Source of the DNA: Bacteroidia bacterium
GTDB taxonomy: Bacteria; Bacteroidota; Bacteroidia; 2-12-FULL-35-15
DNA: 64,000 bases
Reading direction: 5' to 3'
Assembly (NCBI GenBank): GCA_030654175.1
Contig: JAURXZ010000006.1
Location: 62,001 to 126,000 of the forward strand
The notes beneath the pieces were generated by a model. The model did no database searches. It worked only from the letters and a program-made list of their open reading frames with translations, and was not told the DNA's origin. Below are positions 5,663 to 50,766 of the stretch, in pieces. Made by a program: the position numbers and the translations under genes. Positions within the stretch are counted from its first letter, which is position 1. Every line of letters starts with the position of its first letter.

Positions 5663-5688
5663 CTAAAAAAAGTTCTTTTTCATCGCAA

Positions 5689-5788
5689 ATGCTGCGTTAG
5701 GGATTGCAGCGTAAATCCTTTTCTGTTTAGAAAAGATTGAAGCGGAAAGCCCGCCCTTTTCTTTTTCAAGAAAAGGGAACGCCCAAAT
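5689..5788 (+). repeat. Structured dispersed repeat, copy B
   Basis: This is the cleanest copy. It opens ATGCTGCGTTAGGGATTGC and closes GGGAACGCCCAAAT. Stem 1 is GGATT/AATCC, stem 2 TTTTCT/AGAAAA, and stem 3 CCCTTTTCTT/AAGAAAAGGG; GCGTT at the start pairs with AACGC at the end. It lies in the 458-base gap between rarA and the lipoprotein gene, where no gene is seen. Confidence 0.88.
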
Positions 5789-25146: not shown

Positions 25147-26076
25147 TTACATACTAACAGGTTCCACAACCGTACTTTTCCCTTCAATAGAAAGTATTGT
25201 ATTGCTAAAAACTGTTTGAGCTTCGTCAAGCAAGGGTTGTAGATCTCTGTAACGAGCCGAATAATGGCCGATCATCAATTGGTGTACCTCTGCTTTTTGA
25301 GCTATTGTAGCGGCTTGTAAAGCAGTGCTATGAAAGGTTTCTTTTGCACGTGGCAACATCTCATTTAAAAAAGTTGCTTCGTGGTATAATAGGTCAACTC
25401 CTTTTATAATCTCTATAATACGCTCATCATAGCAGGTATCCGAACAATAGGCATAGCTGCGGGGCTTGAGTTTATTGCTTACAAGGTTGGTATTGGGTAT
25501 TAATTCGCCATCGGTTGTTATAAAATCAGCACCGCCTTTTATTGGCAAAATCTGTTCTACCGGTATATGATATTTTTGTATGATCTCTTTTGAAATGTTT
25601 GCAAGCAAAGGCTTTTCAGTAAATAAAAAACCACAGCAAGGAATCCGGTGATTCAATAGAATGGTGCGTACCTCCACTTTATTGTCTTCAAAAATCAGAT
25701 CATTAGCAATGTATTTATGGTGATGATAAACAATTTTAAACCTTAAATAAGTTTGGGAATGTTTGAATTGAACCTCAATTATTTCTTCCAGTTCGGGCGG
25801 ACAAAATAAATGCAAATCAACTGTTCTACCTAGTAAATGCATACTCGATAAAAGGCCGATCAATCCCAGGTAATGATCACCATGCAGGTGACTGATAAAA
25901 ATATGATTTATACGCTGAAATTTCAGTTTAAACTTCCTTAACTGGATCTGTGTGGCCTCTCCACAATCGATCAAAAAAAACCGCTCAGCTATATTTAATA
26001 ACTGAGCGGTTGGATTACGAGTAGATGTAGGAGTTGCACTGCTGCAACCTAAAATAGTTAATTCAAAATTTTGCAT
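25147..26076 (-). CDS. rnz: Ribonuclease Z (tRNA 3' processing endonuclease)
   Basis: The 309-aa metallo-beta-lactamase-fold enzyme cleaves the 3' trailer of tRNA precursors. The zinc motif HLHGDH is in INHIFISHLHGDHYLGLIG near residue 60, and the N-terminal LTILGCSSATPTSTRNPTAQ is the family start. Later ligands are in CSDTCYDERI and HSTALQAATIA; GHYSARY closes the site. The start overlaps the stop of the upstream T9SS gene as TAATG. About 23 codons in, the DNA forms a terminator-like hairpin on the sense strand (see separate entry). A truncated copy of its 5' end lies at 27100-27195. Confidence 0.93.
   Translation of the reverse strand: MQNFELTILGCSSATPTSTRNPTAQLLNIAERFFLIDCGEATQIQLRKFKLKFQRINHIFISHLHGDHYLGLIGLLSSMHLLGRTVDLHLFCPPELEEIIEVQFKHSQTYLRFKIVYHHHKYIANDLIFEDNKVEVRTILLNHRIPCCGFLFTEKPLLANISKEIIQKYHIPVEQILPIKGGADFITTDGELIPNTNLVSNKLKPRSYAYCSDTCYDERIIEIIKGVDLLYHEATFLNEMLPRAKETFHSTALQAATIAQKAEVHQLMIGHYSARYRDLQPLLDEAQTVFSNTILSIEGKSTVVEPVSM
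25973..26010 (-). terminator. Terminator-like hairpin inside the rnz coding region
   Basis: On the sense strand of rnz, ACCGCTCAG and CTGAGCGGT pair around a 13-base loop and are followed by a run of T (TTTTTTT). The hairpin encodes the conserved peptide TAQLLNIAERFF. Since the upstream T9SS gene overlaps rnz by one base, transcripts entering from it would meet this hairpin. Whether it terminates is unknown. Confidence 0.55.
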
Positions 26077-26933
26077 TATTTGCTGGAAACAACCATTCTT
26101 TTTGTTGTGGTAATAGCACCATTTTTAACAGAATACATGTAAACACCCGGTGCAAACGAATTTGCATCAAGAGCAATAGTGTTCATACCTTTTACAGCTT
26201 TGAAATTACTTGAATATACCACTGCGCCAAGCATATCATAAACCTTAAACTCAACATCTGAATTATTTACAGATGTAAAACCAATTTCTGATTTAGTACT
26301 AAACGGATTCGGAATGTTCTGAGCAACATCAAATTTGGACAAATTAAGAGATTCAATTCCTGCAGCAGGATCTACTACATGCAACTTGTAATTATTATTT
26401 TCTGTTGCATTTGCCCAAGTTCCTATACCAAAAGCAACACCACGTCCTTTTGATTTTATCTTTATTGGAAAATCTCCTGCTTTTGTTGGAGTTCCACTTA
26501 CAATAACACACGATTGCCCAGGTGCATCCCAATAACAATATTTGGTCATTGTATAACCGCTTATTCCAGTAACACCTCCCGAAGGAGTATTTGTTCCATT
26601 ACCTAAATAAGTTAATCCAATAACGGATATATCAACGTATGCAGGAGTTCCTGAGGTAGAAGTATCTGCTAAAACTTCTGTTAATGCCAAATGGCTAAGT
26701 GTTACTGTTTGCCCCAAAACTACAGATGTAGCAGGTAATTTAATACTCATAGTAACAGTATAAGCTATATTTATAGTACCTGAAGGTATACCGGTCATGG
26801 AATCCGGACAAATACCAAAAGTAGAATCAGTTGGGACGCAGGTAATGTTTGGAGTACATACTGCTTGTGCAGCAGAATCCAAAACTCCTAAACCTGTCAC
26901 TAATAGAACGGTTGAAAGTAATTTTTTAATCAT
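26076..26933 (-). CDS. Secreted T9SS type A protein, tandem paralogue 1
   Basis: The 285-aa protein has a signal peptide (LLSTVLLVTGLGVLDSAAQA), a beta-rich body with paired Cys (CTPNITCVPTDSTFGICPD, YCYWDAPGQSCVIVSG) and a type A sorting domain (ISQ-like linker, then NIPNPFSTKSEIGF, DMLGAVVYSSN and FAPGVYMYSVKNG with the tail TKRMVVSSK). It is an obvious duplicate of the gene at 27195; most of the sequence aligns without gaps. A promoter at 27012-27042 serves it. Its stop overlaps the rnz start. Substrate or role unknown; possibly an adhesin-like Ig-fold. Confidence 0.8.
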   Translation of the reverse strand: MIKKLLSTVLLVTGLGVLDSAAQAVCTPNITCVPTDSTFGICPDSMTGIPSGTINIAYTVTMSIKLPATSVVLGQTVTLSHLALTEVLADTSTSGTPAYVDISVIGLTYLGNGTNTPSGGVTGISGYTMTKYCYWDAPGQSCVIVSGTPTKAGDFPIKIKSKGRGVAFGIGTWANATENNNYKLHVVDPAAGIESLNLSKFDVAQNIPNPFSTKSEIGFTSVNNSDVEFKVYDMLGAVVYSSNFKAVKGMNTIALDANSFAPGVYMYSVKNGAITTTKRMVVSSK

Positions 26934-27042: not shown

Positions 27043-27099
27043 TGGCTGTTAACTAATTACTTCCCTCTTCTCAATTAATTCATTATCGTTTCTTCATAA

Positions 27100-27195
27100 T
27101 CAATCAAAAAAAAACCGCTCAGCTAATAGCTGAGCGATTTTTTTGATTTTAATTTGCATTACTGCAACCTGAAATTTTAATTCAAAATTTTGAAT
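27100..27195 (-). pseudogene. Truncated remnant of the rnz 5' end left by tandem duplication
   Basis: Read on the minus strand, ATTCAAAATTTTGAATTA then CAGGTTGCAGTAATGCAA and CGCTCAG...GCTGAGCGG match the rnz start ATGCAAAATTTTGAATTA then TAGGTTGCAGCAGTGCAA and the internal hairpin. The start codon is now ATT, so the TAATG junction became TAATT, and internal deletions have removed several codons. The remnant sits directly after T9SS paralogue 2, exactly where intact rnz sits after paralogue 1. Confidence 0.85.
27106..27136 (-). terminator. Terminator of T9SS paralogue 2, derived from rnz coding sequence
   Basis: CGCTCAGCTA and TAGCTGAGCG form a 10-base perfect inverted repeat around one base, followed on the minus strand by GTTTTTTTTT. 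It also has T7 on the plus strand, so it could work both ways. It aligns with the hairpin in rnz but is tighter owing to a 5-base deletion of the loop. Confidence 0.8.
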
Positions 27196-28052
27196 TATTT
27201 GTTTGAAACAACCATTCTTTTGGTGATCGTATTTGCACCATTTTTTACTGAATACATGTAAACACCAGGAGATAAAGTATTAGCATCAATGCTAATAGTG
27301 TTTACACCTTTTACTGATTTGAAATTACTGTTGTAAACAACAGAACCAAGTAAATTATAAACCTTAAATTCTACTTCAGAACTGTTTACTGATGAAAAAC
27401 GAATTTCAGATTTATCGCTAAATGGATTTGGAGTGTTTTGACTTACTTCAAACTTCAGCTGATCAATTGATCCAACCCCTGATGGTGCTGCAACAACTAA
27501 ACGGTAATCATTGTTCTCAGGTGCAGCTGCCCAGGTTCCTTGTCCAAAAAATACAGCACGTGCTTGAGAAATAATTTTTATTGGAAATGTTCCAACCTTG
27601 TTTGGAGTACCACTTACAATTACACATGATTGACCAGGAGCATTCCAATAACCAAATTTAGTCATTGTATAACCGCTAATTGAACAACTAGTACATCCTG
27701 AAGGAGCATTTGCTCCGCTACCTAAATAAGTTAATCCAATTGCAGATAGATCAACCCAAACAGCTGTTCCTGAAGTAGAAGTATCAACTTTAACTTCCGT
27801 TAACGCTAAATGGGTTAAGTTGTAAGTTACACCAGCAACAACTGTAGAAGCTGGTATTTTAATACTCATAGTAACAGTATACGCTTGACTTATAGTACCT
27901 GCTGGCAAACCTGTTGCAGAATCCGGACAGATACCAAAAGTAGAATCTGGTGGAACACAAGAGATATTGGATGTACACAATGCTTGTGCCGAAGAGTTCA
28001 TCACTCCTACACTTGAAATAAATAAAACAGTTGAAAGTAATTTTTTAATCAT
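27195..28052 (-). CDS. Secreted T9SS type A protein, tandem paralogue 2
   Basis: This 285-aa paralogue of 26076-26933 shares its signal peptide pattern, the Cys pairs (CTSNISCVPPDSTFGICPD, YWNAPGQSCVIVSG) and the sorting domain (NTPNPFSDKSEIRF, LSPGVYMYSVKNG, tail TKRMVVSNK). It has two extra Cys in GCTSCSISGYTMTK, absent from paralogue 1, so disulfide pairing may differ. Both proteins have the same length. Surface location through T9SS is expected; no ligand is suggested by sequence. Confidence 0.8.
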   Translation of the reverse strand: MIKKLLSTVLFISSVGVMNSSAQALCTSNISCVPPDSTFGICPDSATGLPAGTISQAYTVTMSIKIPASTVVAGVTYNLTHLALTEVKVDTSTSGTAVWVDLSAIGLTYLGSGANAPSGCTSCSISGYTMTKFGYWNAPGQSCVIVSGTPNKVGTFPIKIISQARAVFFGQGTWAAAPENNDYRLVVAAPSGVGSIDQLKFEVSQNTPNPFSDKSEIRFSSVNSSEVEFKVYNLLGSVVYNSNFKSVKGVNTISIDANTLSPGVYMYSVKNGANTITKRMVVSNK

Positions 28053-28229: not shown

Positions 28230-28577
28230 TTAAGCTTGAACTGAAAATAGTTCAATAGCCTCAGGTAAGGTTTTGGTGATAGTTAAGATGGTATCCAATT
28301 GGGAAATGGCAACCAGTTTCTTTACAGATTCCTGTAAGCCCGTTAAAACAAATACTCCCTGGCTGTTTTTGCACAGACGGTTAGCCACCAAAATAGCGCT
28401 TAACCCTGAAGAGTCGCAATAACGTGATTGAGAAAGATCAATGATAATATTTTTTACACCATCCGTATTTAATACTACCAACTCTGATTTAAGAGAAGGA
28501 GCTACGGTGCTATCCAGTTTTTCAGCAGTTAGCTTTATTACTGTGTATTTATCGTTTTTTTCTATTTGAAAATTCAT
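28230..28577 (-). CDS. STAS-domain protein, anti-sigma factor antagonist (SpoIIAA-like)
   Basis: From the ATG at 28577 (M24 of the track ORF) the 115-aa protein is a single STAS domain: FQIEKNDKYTVIKLTAEKLD, NIIIDLSQSRYCDSSGLSAI and ANRLCKNSQGVFVLTGLQES. The Ser in CDSSGLS is the site phosphorylated by partner kinases in the SpoIIAA/RsbV family. No anti-sigma kinase or phosphatase is adjacent. It probably acts in partner switching, in the cytoplasm. The upstream 23 residues of the track ORF lack any STAS similarity. Confidence 0.88.
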   Translation of the reverse strand: MNFQIEKNDKYTVIKLTAEKLDSTVAPSLKSELVVLNTDGVKNIIIDLSQSRYCDSSGLSAILVANRLCKNSQGVFVLTGLQESVKKLVAISQLDTILTITKTLPEAIELFSVQA

Positions 28578-28775
28578 AATAAAGGATATTTTTACAAAAG
28601 TAAGAAAATTATCCTTTAAAATTACAAATCCAAGGCGATTATACAAGGAAATGCAAATTTTGGCCCCCCTTAACCTGACATCATGGGAGGTTAGTCAAAG
28701 CTTATAAAGACTGTGGAGAAGACCGATTGAGGCCTAAAAAAATGACATTGGATTGAAAAGCCTTATGGTAAAGCA

Positions 28776-28879
28776 ATGCTGCGTTAGGGATTGCAACGTA
28801 AATCCTTCTCCGATTTTTCATCGGAGAAGATTGAAGTGAAAAGCCCGCCCTTTCTTGTTTAAGAAAGGAACGCCCAAAT
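28776..28879 (+). repeat. Structured dispersed repeat, copy C
   Basis: ATGCTGCGTTAGGGATTGCA to GGAACGCCCAAAT. Stem 2 here is TTCTCCGAT/ATCGGAGAA, different in sequence from copies A and B but still perfectly paired. Stem 3 is CCTTTCTT/AAGAAAGG. It lies between pyrB and the STAS gene. Confidence 0.88.
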
Positions 28880-30571: not shown

Positions 30572-30682
30572 TTAGGGCGTTCCCTTTCTAAAAAGAAAGG
30601 GCCGGGCTTTGCACTTCAATCTTTTCTTCCGCTAATTAGCGGAAGAAAAGGATTTACGTTGCAATCCCTAACGCAGCATTCA
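30572..30682 (-). repeat. Structured dispersed repeat, copy D (reverse orientation)
   Basis: On the minus strand AATGCTGCGTTAGGGATTGC runs to GGGAACGCCCTAAT. Stem 2 is CTTCCGCTAATTAGCGGAAG, again a new but fully paired sequence, and stem 3 is CCCTTTCT/AGAAAGGG. It occupies part of the 435-base gap between pyrR and the sigma factor gene. Confidence 0.88.
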
Positions 30683-30839
30683 AGGCCTGAATACAATAGT
30701 TCAGCAAACTTGCAGATTAATTTGCCTATAACAATTACACCGGGTAATTAGCAAACCCAAATTAGTAGATTCGTAATATTCGCTATTCGCAACTAAAAAT
30801 TCATCGGCAAAAAAATAAGTTTTATCGTGAAAATAAAGA

Positions 30840-32725: not shown

Positions 32726-32808
32726 AACAGTTCGTTTTAACAACGGTTTTAAAGTAATAAAAAAAAACACTCACATATTACCCTGAAGCCGTTAGATTTC
32801 CTATTGTT

Positions 32809-32907
32809 TGCGTGAGTGATTGTAGCGAAAATCCTTCCCCGATTTTTATCGGGGAAGATTGAAGCGGAAAGCACGACCCGCAGCGCAGCAAAGGGACACG
32901 CCCAAAT
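32809..32907 (+). repeat. Structured dispersed repeat, copy E (most diverged)
   Basis: TGCGTGAGTGATTGTAGCG to CACGCCCAAAT. Stem 2 is TTCCCCGAT/ATCGGGGAA, still perfectly paired. Stem 3 has decayed to ACCCGCAGCGCAGCAAAGGG. It lies between rpe and sixA. Confidence 0.75.
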
Positions 32908-48349: not shown

Positions 48350-48440
48350 TTGTTGTTAGATGTTAGATATTAGATTTAGTTGTTAGTTGTTAGTTGTTAG
48401 TGCATTTTCAATTGTCAATTATCAATTATCAATTATCAAT
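48350..48440. repeat. Word array (TAGTTGTTAGTTGTTAG / ATTATCAATTATCAATT)
   Basis: TTGTTAGATGTTAGATATTAG leads into TTAGTTGTTAGTTGTTAG and then TCAATTATCAATTATCAATT. It fills the gap between the propeller and receptor genes of the B12 operon. Confidence 0.65.
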
Positions 48441-50370
48441 TCCTTTTATTCTGTTGATTAAAATAAACGGTTGCACCAAATTGACAATTAAATAAAGGCA
48501 TTGCTCTATATGCCACAACCTGGTATGTTTCCTGCCAAATATTATTTAATTGGGCAAATACTTTTATTTTTAAAGTATTCCATCCAAAGGTTTGTGCAAC
48601 ATTCAAATTCCCAACAGAATAGGGCTTTAAATAGGACGTATTATCAGATGTTGTATATCTATACCCTGTATACACCTGAGTATAGCTGATAGAAGTGGCC
48701 CTATAGAAGAGAGAAAGATTACATTGTCCGTTTTGTATTGGAACATAGATCAACTGTTGGCCTAATGCTGCATCGTTTATTGTTGTTGATCTTTCATTGG
48801 TTGATAAAACATAATTATACATTCCGGATAATTGCACTTTAAATTTTCTAATCGTATAATTCACGTTTACCTTATATTCAAGCCCACGAGACCATACCTG
48901 CAAAACATTGGCAGGCGTCCAACTATTATATTGATCAGGTAACCAAAGTATCCAATCATCAATAGTCCGGTTAAAGGCGGTTGCACCTAATTCCCACCCA
49001 ATTTGTTTATAACTAGAACTATGAATTAAACTTAATTCTTCAGCCCATCCACTTTCCGGTTTTAAATTTGGATTTCCTTGTGCACCCTGCCCTGCCCAAT
49101 ACAGATCATTAAATGTTGGTAAACGATAATGTTTTGAAACATTTCCTTTTAATATAATAAGTTTAAATAATTTCCCTTCAAAACCAACAGATGAAGTAAA
49201 AGGAATTTCTTTATTTTCAATAAATTCCTGACGTGCACTGATCACAGCATTCCAGTTATTTTTGGCAGTATGAACCTTATAACTTCCAAACAATGCGGTT
49301 CTGTTTTCGGAAGGATTTTTTAAATAATCAGGTGTACTTGCCTCGCTGTAGGTATTGTTAATACCGATATTTATCAGATCAAATTTTGTGATAGTAAACC
49401 TGGTCTCAACTTCTGAAATTGCGTTTTTTGTCCGGCTTTTTGAATCTTCATTGATCATAGAATCTTTAAATTTCAATCCTTCATCAAAATAAGCGAAGCG
49501 GGCTAAAATGGTTAATTTCTTTCCTGTTCGTTGCCATTCAGTAGTAGCTCTGTATGATTCATCTTTTTGATTGGATATATTACTATTTTGGGTCATTGAG
49601 GGTGGAATGTTCCTATCACTGAACTGATACCAAAAACGGGTATTTATTTTTTGATTTGAATTTATCTGAAAATAATTTTCCTGAAGTAAGCCTTTTTGTT
49701 TTAATTCTGCATTCGATTGTTTTTGTTCGGGTTTACCATATTGGGCAGTATTGATAAATGGAAAATCGTTTTTTGCATCGTGATTAAAAACCTTGAAGGA
49801 AGTAACGAATCGTTTTTTGCTTATTTCAAAACTTGCCTGTTGTTGTTTATCCGAAAAACTACCAAAAGCAATAGTTGCGGAAGCAGAAATTCCTTTATCA
49901 AATTGACTTGTATTGTTCAAATGAATAGTTCCTCCAACAGCCCCACTACCCCACAAGGCGCCAGATGCTCCATACTGCAACTTAACATCATTCAAAAAGT
50001 TAGTTGGTATTAGTGACAGATCTAATTGTCCAAGCATCGGACTTTGTAAATTAAATCCGTTCCATAAAACTGCGGTGTGGCTAGCTCCTGAACCTCTAAA
50101 AGAGCTTGATGCCAAGCTTCCTAAACCGTATGATTTAATAAAAACCTGGCTTCGGTTAGCGAGCAGATCTGCTAAATTACCTGCAGAATTTTGATCAAGA
50201 AGGCTGCTATCAATTGTTTCAGATTTGTTTCCGGAAGAAAAAGTTGATTGTCGGGAGGAGGATACTTCAACAACAGACAACTGTTTTACAGTATCCATGC
50301 GCAGTTGAGCAAAGCCTGTAAAGGCAAGCAAAAAGGAACAAACAAATAAATTAATTTTAAACAAATTCAT
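48436..50370 (-). CDS. btuB: TonB-dependent receptor, BtuB-like (B12 uptake)
   Basis: The 644-aa protein has a signal peptide (FKINLFVCSFLLAFTGFAQ) and a TonB box region with LSVVEVSS. The plug includes GNLADLLANRSQVFIKSYGL and LGSLASSSFRGSGASHTAVL; the barrel ends FNCQFGATVYFNQQNKRN. It lacks a CarboxypepD_reg domain and is shorter than the 21372 receptor, which fits BtuB-like transporters. A cobalamin riboswitch directly upstream makes B12 or a related corrinoid the likely ligand. Confidence 0.87.
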   Translation of the reverse strand: MNLFKINLFVCSFLLAFTGFAQLRMDTVKQLSVVEVSSSRQSTFSSGNKSETIDSSLLDQNSAGNLADLLANRSQVFIKSYGLGSLASSSFRGSGASHTAVLWNGFNLQSPMLGQLDLSLIPTNFLNDVKLQYGASGALWGSGAVGGTIHLNNTSQFDKGISASATIAFGSFSDKQQQASFEISKKRFVTSFKVFNHDAKNDFPFINTAQYGKPEQKQSNAELKQKGLLQENYFQINSNQKINTRFWYQFSDRNIPPSMTQNSNISNQKDESYRATTEWQRTGKKLTILARFAYFDEGLKFKDSMINEDSKSRTKNAISEVETRFTITKFDLINIGINNTYSEASTPDYLKNPSENRTALFGSYKVHTAKNNWNAVISARQEFIENKEIPFTSSVGFEGKLFKLIILKGNVSKHYRLPTFNDLYWAGQGAQGNPNLKPESGWAEELSLIHSSSYKQIGWELGATAFNRTIDDWILWLPDQYNSWTPANVLQVWSRGLEYKVNVNYTIRKFKVQLSGMYNYVLSTNERSTTINDAALGQQLIYVPIQNGQCNLSLFYRATSISYTQVYTGYRYTTSDNTSYLKPYSVGNLNVAQTFGWNTLKIKVFAQLNNIWQETYQVVAYRAMPLFNCQFGATVYFNQQNKRN

Positions 50371-50484
50371 TACAAACGATTAAGCGTTAGCTAAAATCAT
50401 TGGCAACAAACGGTAAAATTGAATGGATAGAAAAATGTTAACCTATTTATCTATTCTTCGCCTTTTCTCCGAAAGCTACAAATG

Positions 50485-50742
50485 GTAATGCAAATGGCAG
50501 GTCTTCTGACTTGTTCTGTTTTTAACGCCTTCCCGTCTTTAGATGAATCAAGATAAAAGAATCAAGATTTAAGACAGTGGCAAAATGAATGTTAAAAAAA
50601 TATTTAGAAAAAGTTAACTTCAAAGTGATATATAAAGCAAACTTTACAACTTTGAACTTTAAACTTTAAACTAAATAAGAACTTACAGCATCGGGAAATG
50701 TTCAGGATTATACCTGATTCCCTTTTAATTCCTCAAAATGAA
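50485..50742 (-). promoter_or_regulatory. Cobalamin (B12) riboswitch upstream of btuB
   Basis: On the minus strand the conserved core is visible: GGGAATCAGGTATAATCCTG, then CATTTCCCGATGCTGTAAG, later GCCACTGTC, GACGGGAAGGCG and finally AGTCAGAAGACCTGCC. These match the family's GGGAA..GGT..AATCC, CCCGC.ACTGTA, GCCACTG and GTCAG.AGACCTGCC boxes. Between CTGTA and GCCACTG there are about 100 bases, containing a word array. It should switch off receptor expression when B12 is abundant. Confidence 0.9.
50640..50680 (-). repeat. Word array inside the cobalamin riboswitch
   Basis: CAACTTTGAACTTTAAACTT then TAAACTAAATAAG lies in the peripheral variable region of the aptamer. The same words fill the gap at 57329-57480. 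Confidence 0.7.
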
Positions 50743-50758
50743 GAAACCAATTGCGGAA

Positions 50759-50766
50759 CAAATGTA
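50759..50766 (-). promoter_or_regulatory. -7 promoter box of the B12 operon
   Basis: TACATTTG on the minus strand matches TAnnTTTG and lies about 17 bases upstream of the riboswitch core, which gives a leader starting close to the aptamer. Confidence 0.55.

Follow-up and report, generated by a model that had tools for sequence, protein, structure and literature searches.

A putative T9SS gene terminator embedded in the rnz coding sequence of Bacteroidia and its stand-alone duplicate

The window analysed, a 64,000-nucleotide stretch of a Bacteroidia bacterium genome, carries two T9SS-sorted protein genes, and behind one of them lies a hairpin followed by a T-tract within a fragment of rnz, the ribonuclease Z gene. 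The question raised by this locus is whether the coding fragment became a terminator only after it had been duplicated, as the original prediction held, or whether rnz already contained such an element. On the minus strand the genes occur in the order pyrR, pyrB, STAS-domain gene, T9SS paralogue 2, decayed rnz fragment, T9SS paralogue 1 and rnz. The features of the locus are as follows.

25147..26076, minus strand: rnz, ribonuclease Z, 309 aa (NCBIfam NF000801 and TIGR02651, both over cut-off)
25973..25980, minus strand: T8 tract directly after the rnz hairpin, codons TTT TTT TT(G), Phe-Phe-Leu
25981..26009, minus strand: hairpin inside rnz, stem CCGCTCAGTTAT/ATAGCTGAGCGG, approximately codons 23-32, conserved class-wide
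26076..26933, minus strand: T9SS-sorted protein, paralogue 1 (PF18962, TIGR04183)
27090..27194, minus strand: decayed copy of the rnz 5' end, ATG changed to ATT, following paralogue 2
27106..27114, minus strand: T9 tract of the stand-alone terminator-like element
27116..27136, minus strand: stand-alone terminator-like hairpin, CGCTCAGCT-ATT-AGCTGAGCG
27138..27144, plus strand: T7 tract (A7 on the minus strand), listed among the plus strand terminator-like sites
27195..28052, minus strand: T9SS-sorted protein, paralogue 2, 69% amino acid identity to paralogue 1
28230..28646, minus strand: STAS-domain gene; in many genomes that lack the T9SS gene, it lies immediately upstream of rnz

Approximately 100 nt behind paralogue 2 aligned to the rnz 5' end (from 26076 downwards), and the rnz origin of the fragment and the loss of its start codon, both previously proposed, were confirmed. 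Minus strand positions 27136-27116 read CGCTCAGCTATTAGCTGAGCG, followed by G and then T9, and the element lies 59 nt past the paralogue 2 stop codon, at the place where a terminator for a T9SS gene had been expected. It folded into 9 GC-rich pairs with a 3-nt loop, which G.U and A-U pairs extend to about 17 bp; the 10-bp stem originally described would leave a loop of 1 nt. The presence of a hairpin before T9 was upheld, and it was far past chance (fold z = -6.4, with 0 of 200 shuffles equally good). The hairpin core measures 27 nt in rnz but 21 nt in its copy, a difference of 6 bases where a loss of 5 from the loop had been described. With A7 at its other side, the element is also terminator-like on the plus strand and looks bidirectional. 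The arms of the copy at 27104-27146 are near-perfect inverted repeats, A7 and T9 included, and the 5' arm (AATCAAAAAAATCGCTCAGCTA) is almost the reverse complement of the 3' arm, as if template switching had rewritten the 5' arm. A template-switch (quasi-palindrome) origin of the A7 arm may apply, but the A-tract is too simple to set it apart from ordinary substitutions.

The intact rnz gene carries, in frame, CCGCTCAGTTATTAAATATAGCTGAGCGG followed by T8, which encodes Thr-Ala-Gln-Leu-Leu-Asn-Ile-Ala-Glu-Arg-Phe-Phe-Leu; hairpin and T8 together span codons 23-35. The folding energy of the rnz hairpin was -21.7 kcal/mol versus -22.5 kcal/mol for the stand-alone copy. A stable GC-rich hairpin with a loop of 3-8 nt and a U-rich tract straight 3' of the stem (T8 in rnz, T9 and T10 in the copies) were both found, as in intrinsic terminators. 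The position also fits a transcript end, the copy lying behind paralogue 2 and the rnz hairpin being tied to the overlapping T9SS gene. The paralogue 1 stop and the rnz start share 1 nt (TAATG), an overlap that suggests that both genes are carried on one mRNA. In 856 kb of the genome surveyed for strong terminator-like sites, 56 were intergenic and 4 were in sense ORFs; three of these 4 were no more than about 30 nt from a start that had been assigned mechanically, which leaves the rnz site as the only one deep in an ORF. Because rnz already holds the full element, the terminator-like structure most probably existed before the duplication and did not arise from coding sequence afterwards. The proposed reuse of coding sequence thus stands as far as descent from the rnz 5' end is concerned, but not as the making of a new terminator, the same element being conserved and covarying in rnz class-wide. 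Judged by its alignment, the second terminator-like element of the window is a tandem-duplicated copy of the rnz element that has lost its coding role.

An rnz orthologue was found in 51 of 59 relatives. The pattern CCGCTCAN..TGAGCGGTTTTTT gave 27 matches in 295 genomes of the class, representing 14 genera, all 27 at the same rnz codons; the reversed pattern, used as a control, gave 0 matches in the same 295 genomes. All same-genus rnz genes examined carried the element, full or weakened. Among 31 same-genus rnz genes, the codons ACC, GCT, CAG, GCT, GAG and TTT TTT were nearly invariant and ranked among the least variable of the gene. Elsewhere in those genes ACA/ACT, CAA and GAA were preferred, ACC, CAG and GAG were in the minority, and CGG accounted for 6% of Arg codons. 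When compared with synonymous recodings, 65 of 175 distinct rnz 5' regions folded far better (z about -4 to -10), and this excess peaked at the element (mean z -6.55) and was close to 0 elsewhere along rnz.

Covariation was measured in 57 distinct sequences, in which 88% of cells paired and 9 of 14 pairs changed on both sides. None of 500 shuffles reached the observed values, and slid pairings were only 27-39% paired. Several stem changes are not silent in the protein: CAG-GCT (Gln/Ala) is replaced by CAA-CTT, with Leu, or by CAT-AAT, with His and Asn, and GCT-GAG by GCC-GGG, which turns Glu into Gly. Arg-Phe-Phe was encoded at 59 of 65 hairpin loci versus 9 among the loci without a hairpin, and Phe-Phe was nearly always written TTT TTT at hairpin loci, whereas loci without the hairpin varied. 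From these patterns, a nucleic-acid signal appears to have shaped the RNase Z protein sequence.

Departures from the usual U-tract were seen. In a record titled Candidatus Woesearchaeota archaeon, whose contig is Bacteroidota-like, an additional T in the U-tract of rnz breaks the frame at the putative terminator; this may be an error of sequencing, or else a slippery site that transcription corrects. The rnz 5' regions of loci L211 and L253 have a strong hairpin with an interrupted U-tract (TTTTATTT), possibly a stage of decay or a sign of another role; L211 is preceded by a STAS gene, not a T9SS gene.

With T9SS status called by a profile built from two seeds, the hairpin was present at 52 of 66 loci with an abutting or overlapping T9SS ORF versus 13 of 103 in other contexts (10 of 63 with a STAS gene directly preceding, 3 of 18 with a gap after the T9SS gene, and 0 of 22 others). 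A Pfam spot check upheld 19 of 19 T9SS calls and the one STAS call. Counted by family, overlap and hairpin occurred together in 13, overlap alone in 5, the hairpin alone in 2 and neither in 21 (p = 4e-5). Independent evolution was simulated on a tree of rnz without the hairpin codons, a method chosen because sister-pair contrasts were uninformative; 0 of 4000 runs reached the observed correlation (p<0.0003), and six co-gains were counted.

Among loci with a gap behind the T9SS gene and no rnz hairpin, 9 of 15 had an intergenic terminator 17-52 nt past the T9SS stop, mostly of unrelated sequence. Same-genus genomes without an adjacent T9SS gene, which have a STAS gene in front instead, had weaker hairpins, most at -14.4 versus a median near -22 kcal/mol (p = 8e-4), and one of these loci retains a short stretch that resembles a leftover of the T9SS tail. 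Of all the evidence, this complementary pattern argues most strongly that the T9SS gene is what the element would serve. The exceptions were 14 of the 66 abutting T9SS loci, without a hairpin, 10 STAS-preceded loci with one, and 6 gapped T9SS loci with neither rnz hairpin nor intergenic terminator.

Conservation, covariation, the excess over the synonymous null, the T9SS association, the complementary terminators, the duplication and the intermediate described below are best brought together if the T9SS gene has its 3' terminator within rnz, in the form of this element, which also attenuates rnz, a reading to which we give a probability of about 0.78. The gene of the small T9SS-secreted protein overlaps the rnz start, and therefore there is no space for a terminator between them; across a broad set of Bacteroidia it would instead be written inside rnz codons 23-35, as a 9-14 bp hairpin in Pro-Thr-Ala-Gln-Leu...Ala-Glu-Arg and then U8 from Phe-Phe-Leu. 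Most secreted-protein transcripts would end at the rnz hairpin and a minority would read through into rnz, so that the element would attenuate rnz as well. Going by its sequence features, the rnz version likely terminates transcription; that polymerase does stop there, how much of it reads through and whether translation exerts control are what we infer. It counts against this reading that termination could be suppressed if a ribosome followed RNA polymerase closely while translating rnz. A more ambitious and quite tentative proposal, which we think rather less probable than its opposite, is that a terminator stands in a housekeeping coding sequence across much of the class, that it has steered RNase Z amino acids, and that translation restart at TAATG gates the read-through.

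In this genome the T9SS gene was tandemly duplicated along with the first ~100 nt of rnz, and the rnz fragment of the copy then decayed save for the hairpin and U-tract. These would now serve paralogue 2 as an ordinary terminator, whose loop is shorter and whose U-tract is longer than in the rnz version. Homologous loci were compared for intermediates, and one was present in a sister species (G017/L009). There, an orthologue of paralogue 2 (91% amino acid identity, 0.999 support) is followed by a less decayed rnz remnant, in which the start codon is gone and CCGCTCAGCTATATAGCTGAGCGG, T10 and then GATCGATCTTGGAGA, resembling rnz, are found. In both species the flanking rnz sequence decays and the hairpin and U-tract stay, while the loop shrinks and the U-tract grows. 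A d'Aubenton-Carafa-type score was 40.9 for rnz and 53.1 and 64.1 for the copies, the rise being due to the longer U-tract and shorter loop. The claim that the change improved the terminator agrees with these scores but not with the equal folding energies, and release from coding may have allowed a modest tuning of the copies, at most mild.

These higher scores, together with the loop and U-tract changes, are also what would be expected if an rnz coding fragment had turned into a terminator only after duplication, through loss of loop bases. The full element in rnz, its equal folding energy and its class-wide conservation make that history improbable. Protein constraint and codon bias alone could be invoked for the palindrome, as PTAQ...ERFFLIDCGE is a conserved protein stretch, but this is refuted by the synonymous null, and rnz genes of similar protein sequence without an abutting T9SS gene mostly have no hairpin; we consider it very nearly negligible.

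Two other roles for the hairpin have to be weighed against termination. Minimal tRNase Z substrates have a similar stem length and trailer to the rnz hairpin, and the host gene encodes RNase Z, so the hairpin might be a regulatory RNA element belonging to rnz, such as a tRNA-minihelix mimic that RNase Z cuts in its own mRNA as feedback. The ~12-bp stem, the 5-7 nt loop, the U-rich trailer and the retention of the hairpin by some STAS-preceded rnz genes speak for this role, and in a minihelix test the ~12-bp stem length fitted many rnz copies, but the 3-4 nt loops of the stand-alone copies did not fit. Such feedback matches the distribution poorly: the presence of the hairpin tracks the upstream T9SS gene and not rnz, intergenic terminators take its place at gapped loci, it persists in copies separated from rnz, where its 3-4 nt loop does not resemble a T arm, and the literature searched gave no precedent. 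It is accordingly given little credence, slightly less than a history of conversion after duplication. The same sequence evidence, the U-tract excepted, would also fit a 3'-end signal of the T9SS mRNA that acts through RNase processing or as a stability hairpin, not through intrinsic termination. However, the U-tract is kept right after the stem, as the Arg-Phe-Phe counts indicate, and is longer in the copies, which is typical of termination, and this role seems as improbable as conversion after duplication.

Compared with intrinsic (Rho-independent) terminators, the putative embedded terminator is alike in its GC-rich hairpin directly before 8-10 U and its location after a gene; it differs in that the rnz element is in frame near the 5' end of the following gene's coding sequence, has co-evolving amino acids and is conserved across families. 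Intra-operon attenuators such as rplL-rpoB and frd-ampC set the ratio of two co-transcribed genes by means of a leaky terminator placed between them. Such attenuators occupy an intergenic or leader region and are not known to lie in frame within the gene that they attenuate. The leaky role predicted for the rnz element would be the likeness to rplL-rpoB and frd-ampC, and the location within the coding frame is different. By Term-seq, RNA 3' ends inside ORFs and premature termination have been detected in E. coli (PMC7815308) and Borrelia (PMC10319736), with intrinsic-terminator scores for a few of them. RNA 3' ends within coding sequence, predicted for the rnz element, are the point of likeness; those studies are single-species transcript maps, whereas the rnz element is deeply conserved in Bacteroidia, covarying, tied to a specific upstream gene and known from sequence alone. 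A search of freely accessible papers for embedded terminators, RNase Z feedback and rnz with T9SS genes returned no description of this element or locus, nor of any conserved terminator that forms part of the coding sequence downstream. If the proposed role is true, the locus would show clearly how evolution can keep a single piece of DNA as terminator and as conserved protein code over many families, with release from the coding role visible after duplication. It would allow tests of how overlapping genes push regulatory signals into their neighbours, and of the way in which rnz is expressed through a strong terminator.

The hairpin element had no Rfam match above the gathering score, and the only matches of the window, to Flavo-1 and cobalamin, were elsewhere.

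5686-5760, plus strand: Flavo-1 RNA (RF01705), Rfam
28768-28854, plus strand: Flavo-1 RNA (RF01705), Rfam
30596-30691, minus strand: Flavo-1 RNA (RF01705), Rfam
32801-32882, plus strand: Flavo-1 RNA (RF01705), Rfam
50479-50766, minus strand: cobalamin riboswitch (RF00174), Rfam, ahead of gene 48436-50370

The four Flavo-1 copies are hairpin-rich and lie between genes in both orientations, and some of them score as terminator-like.
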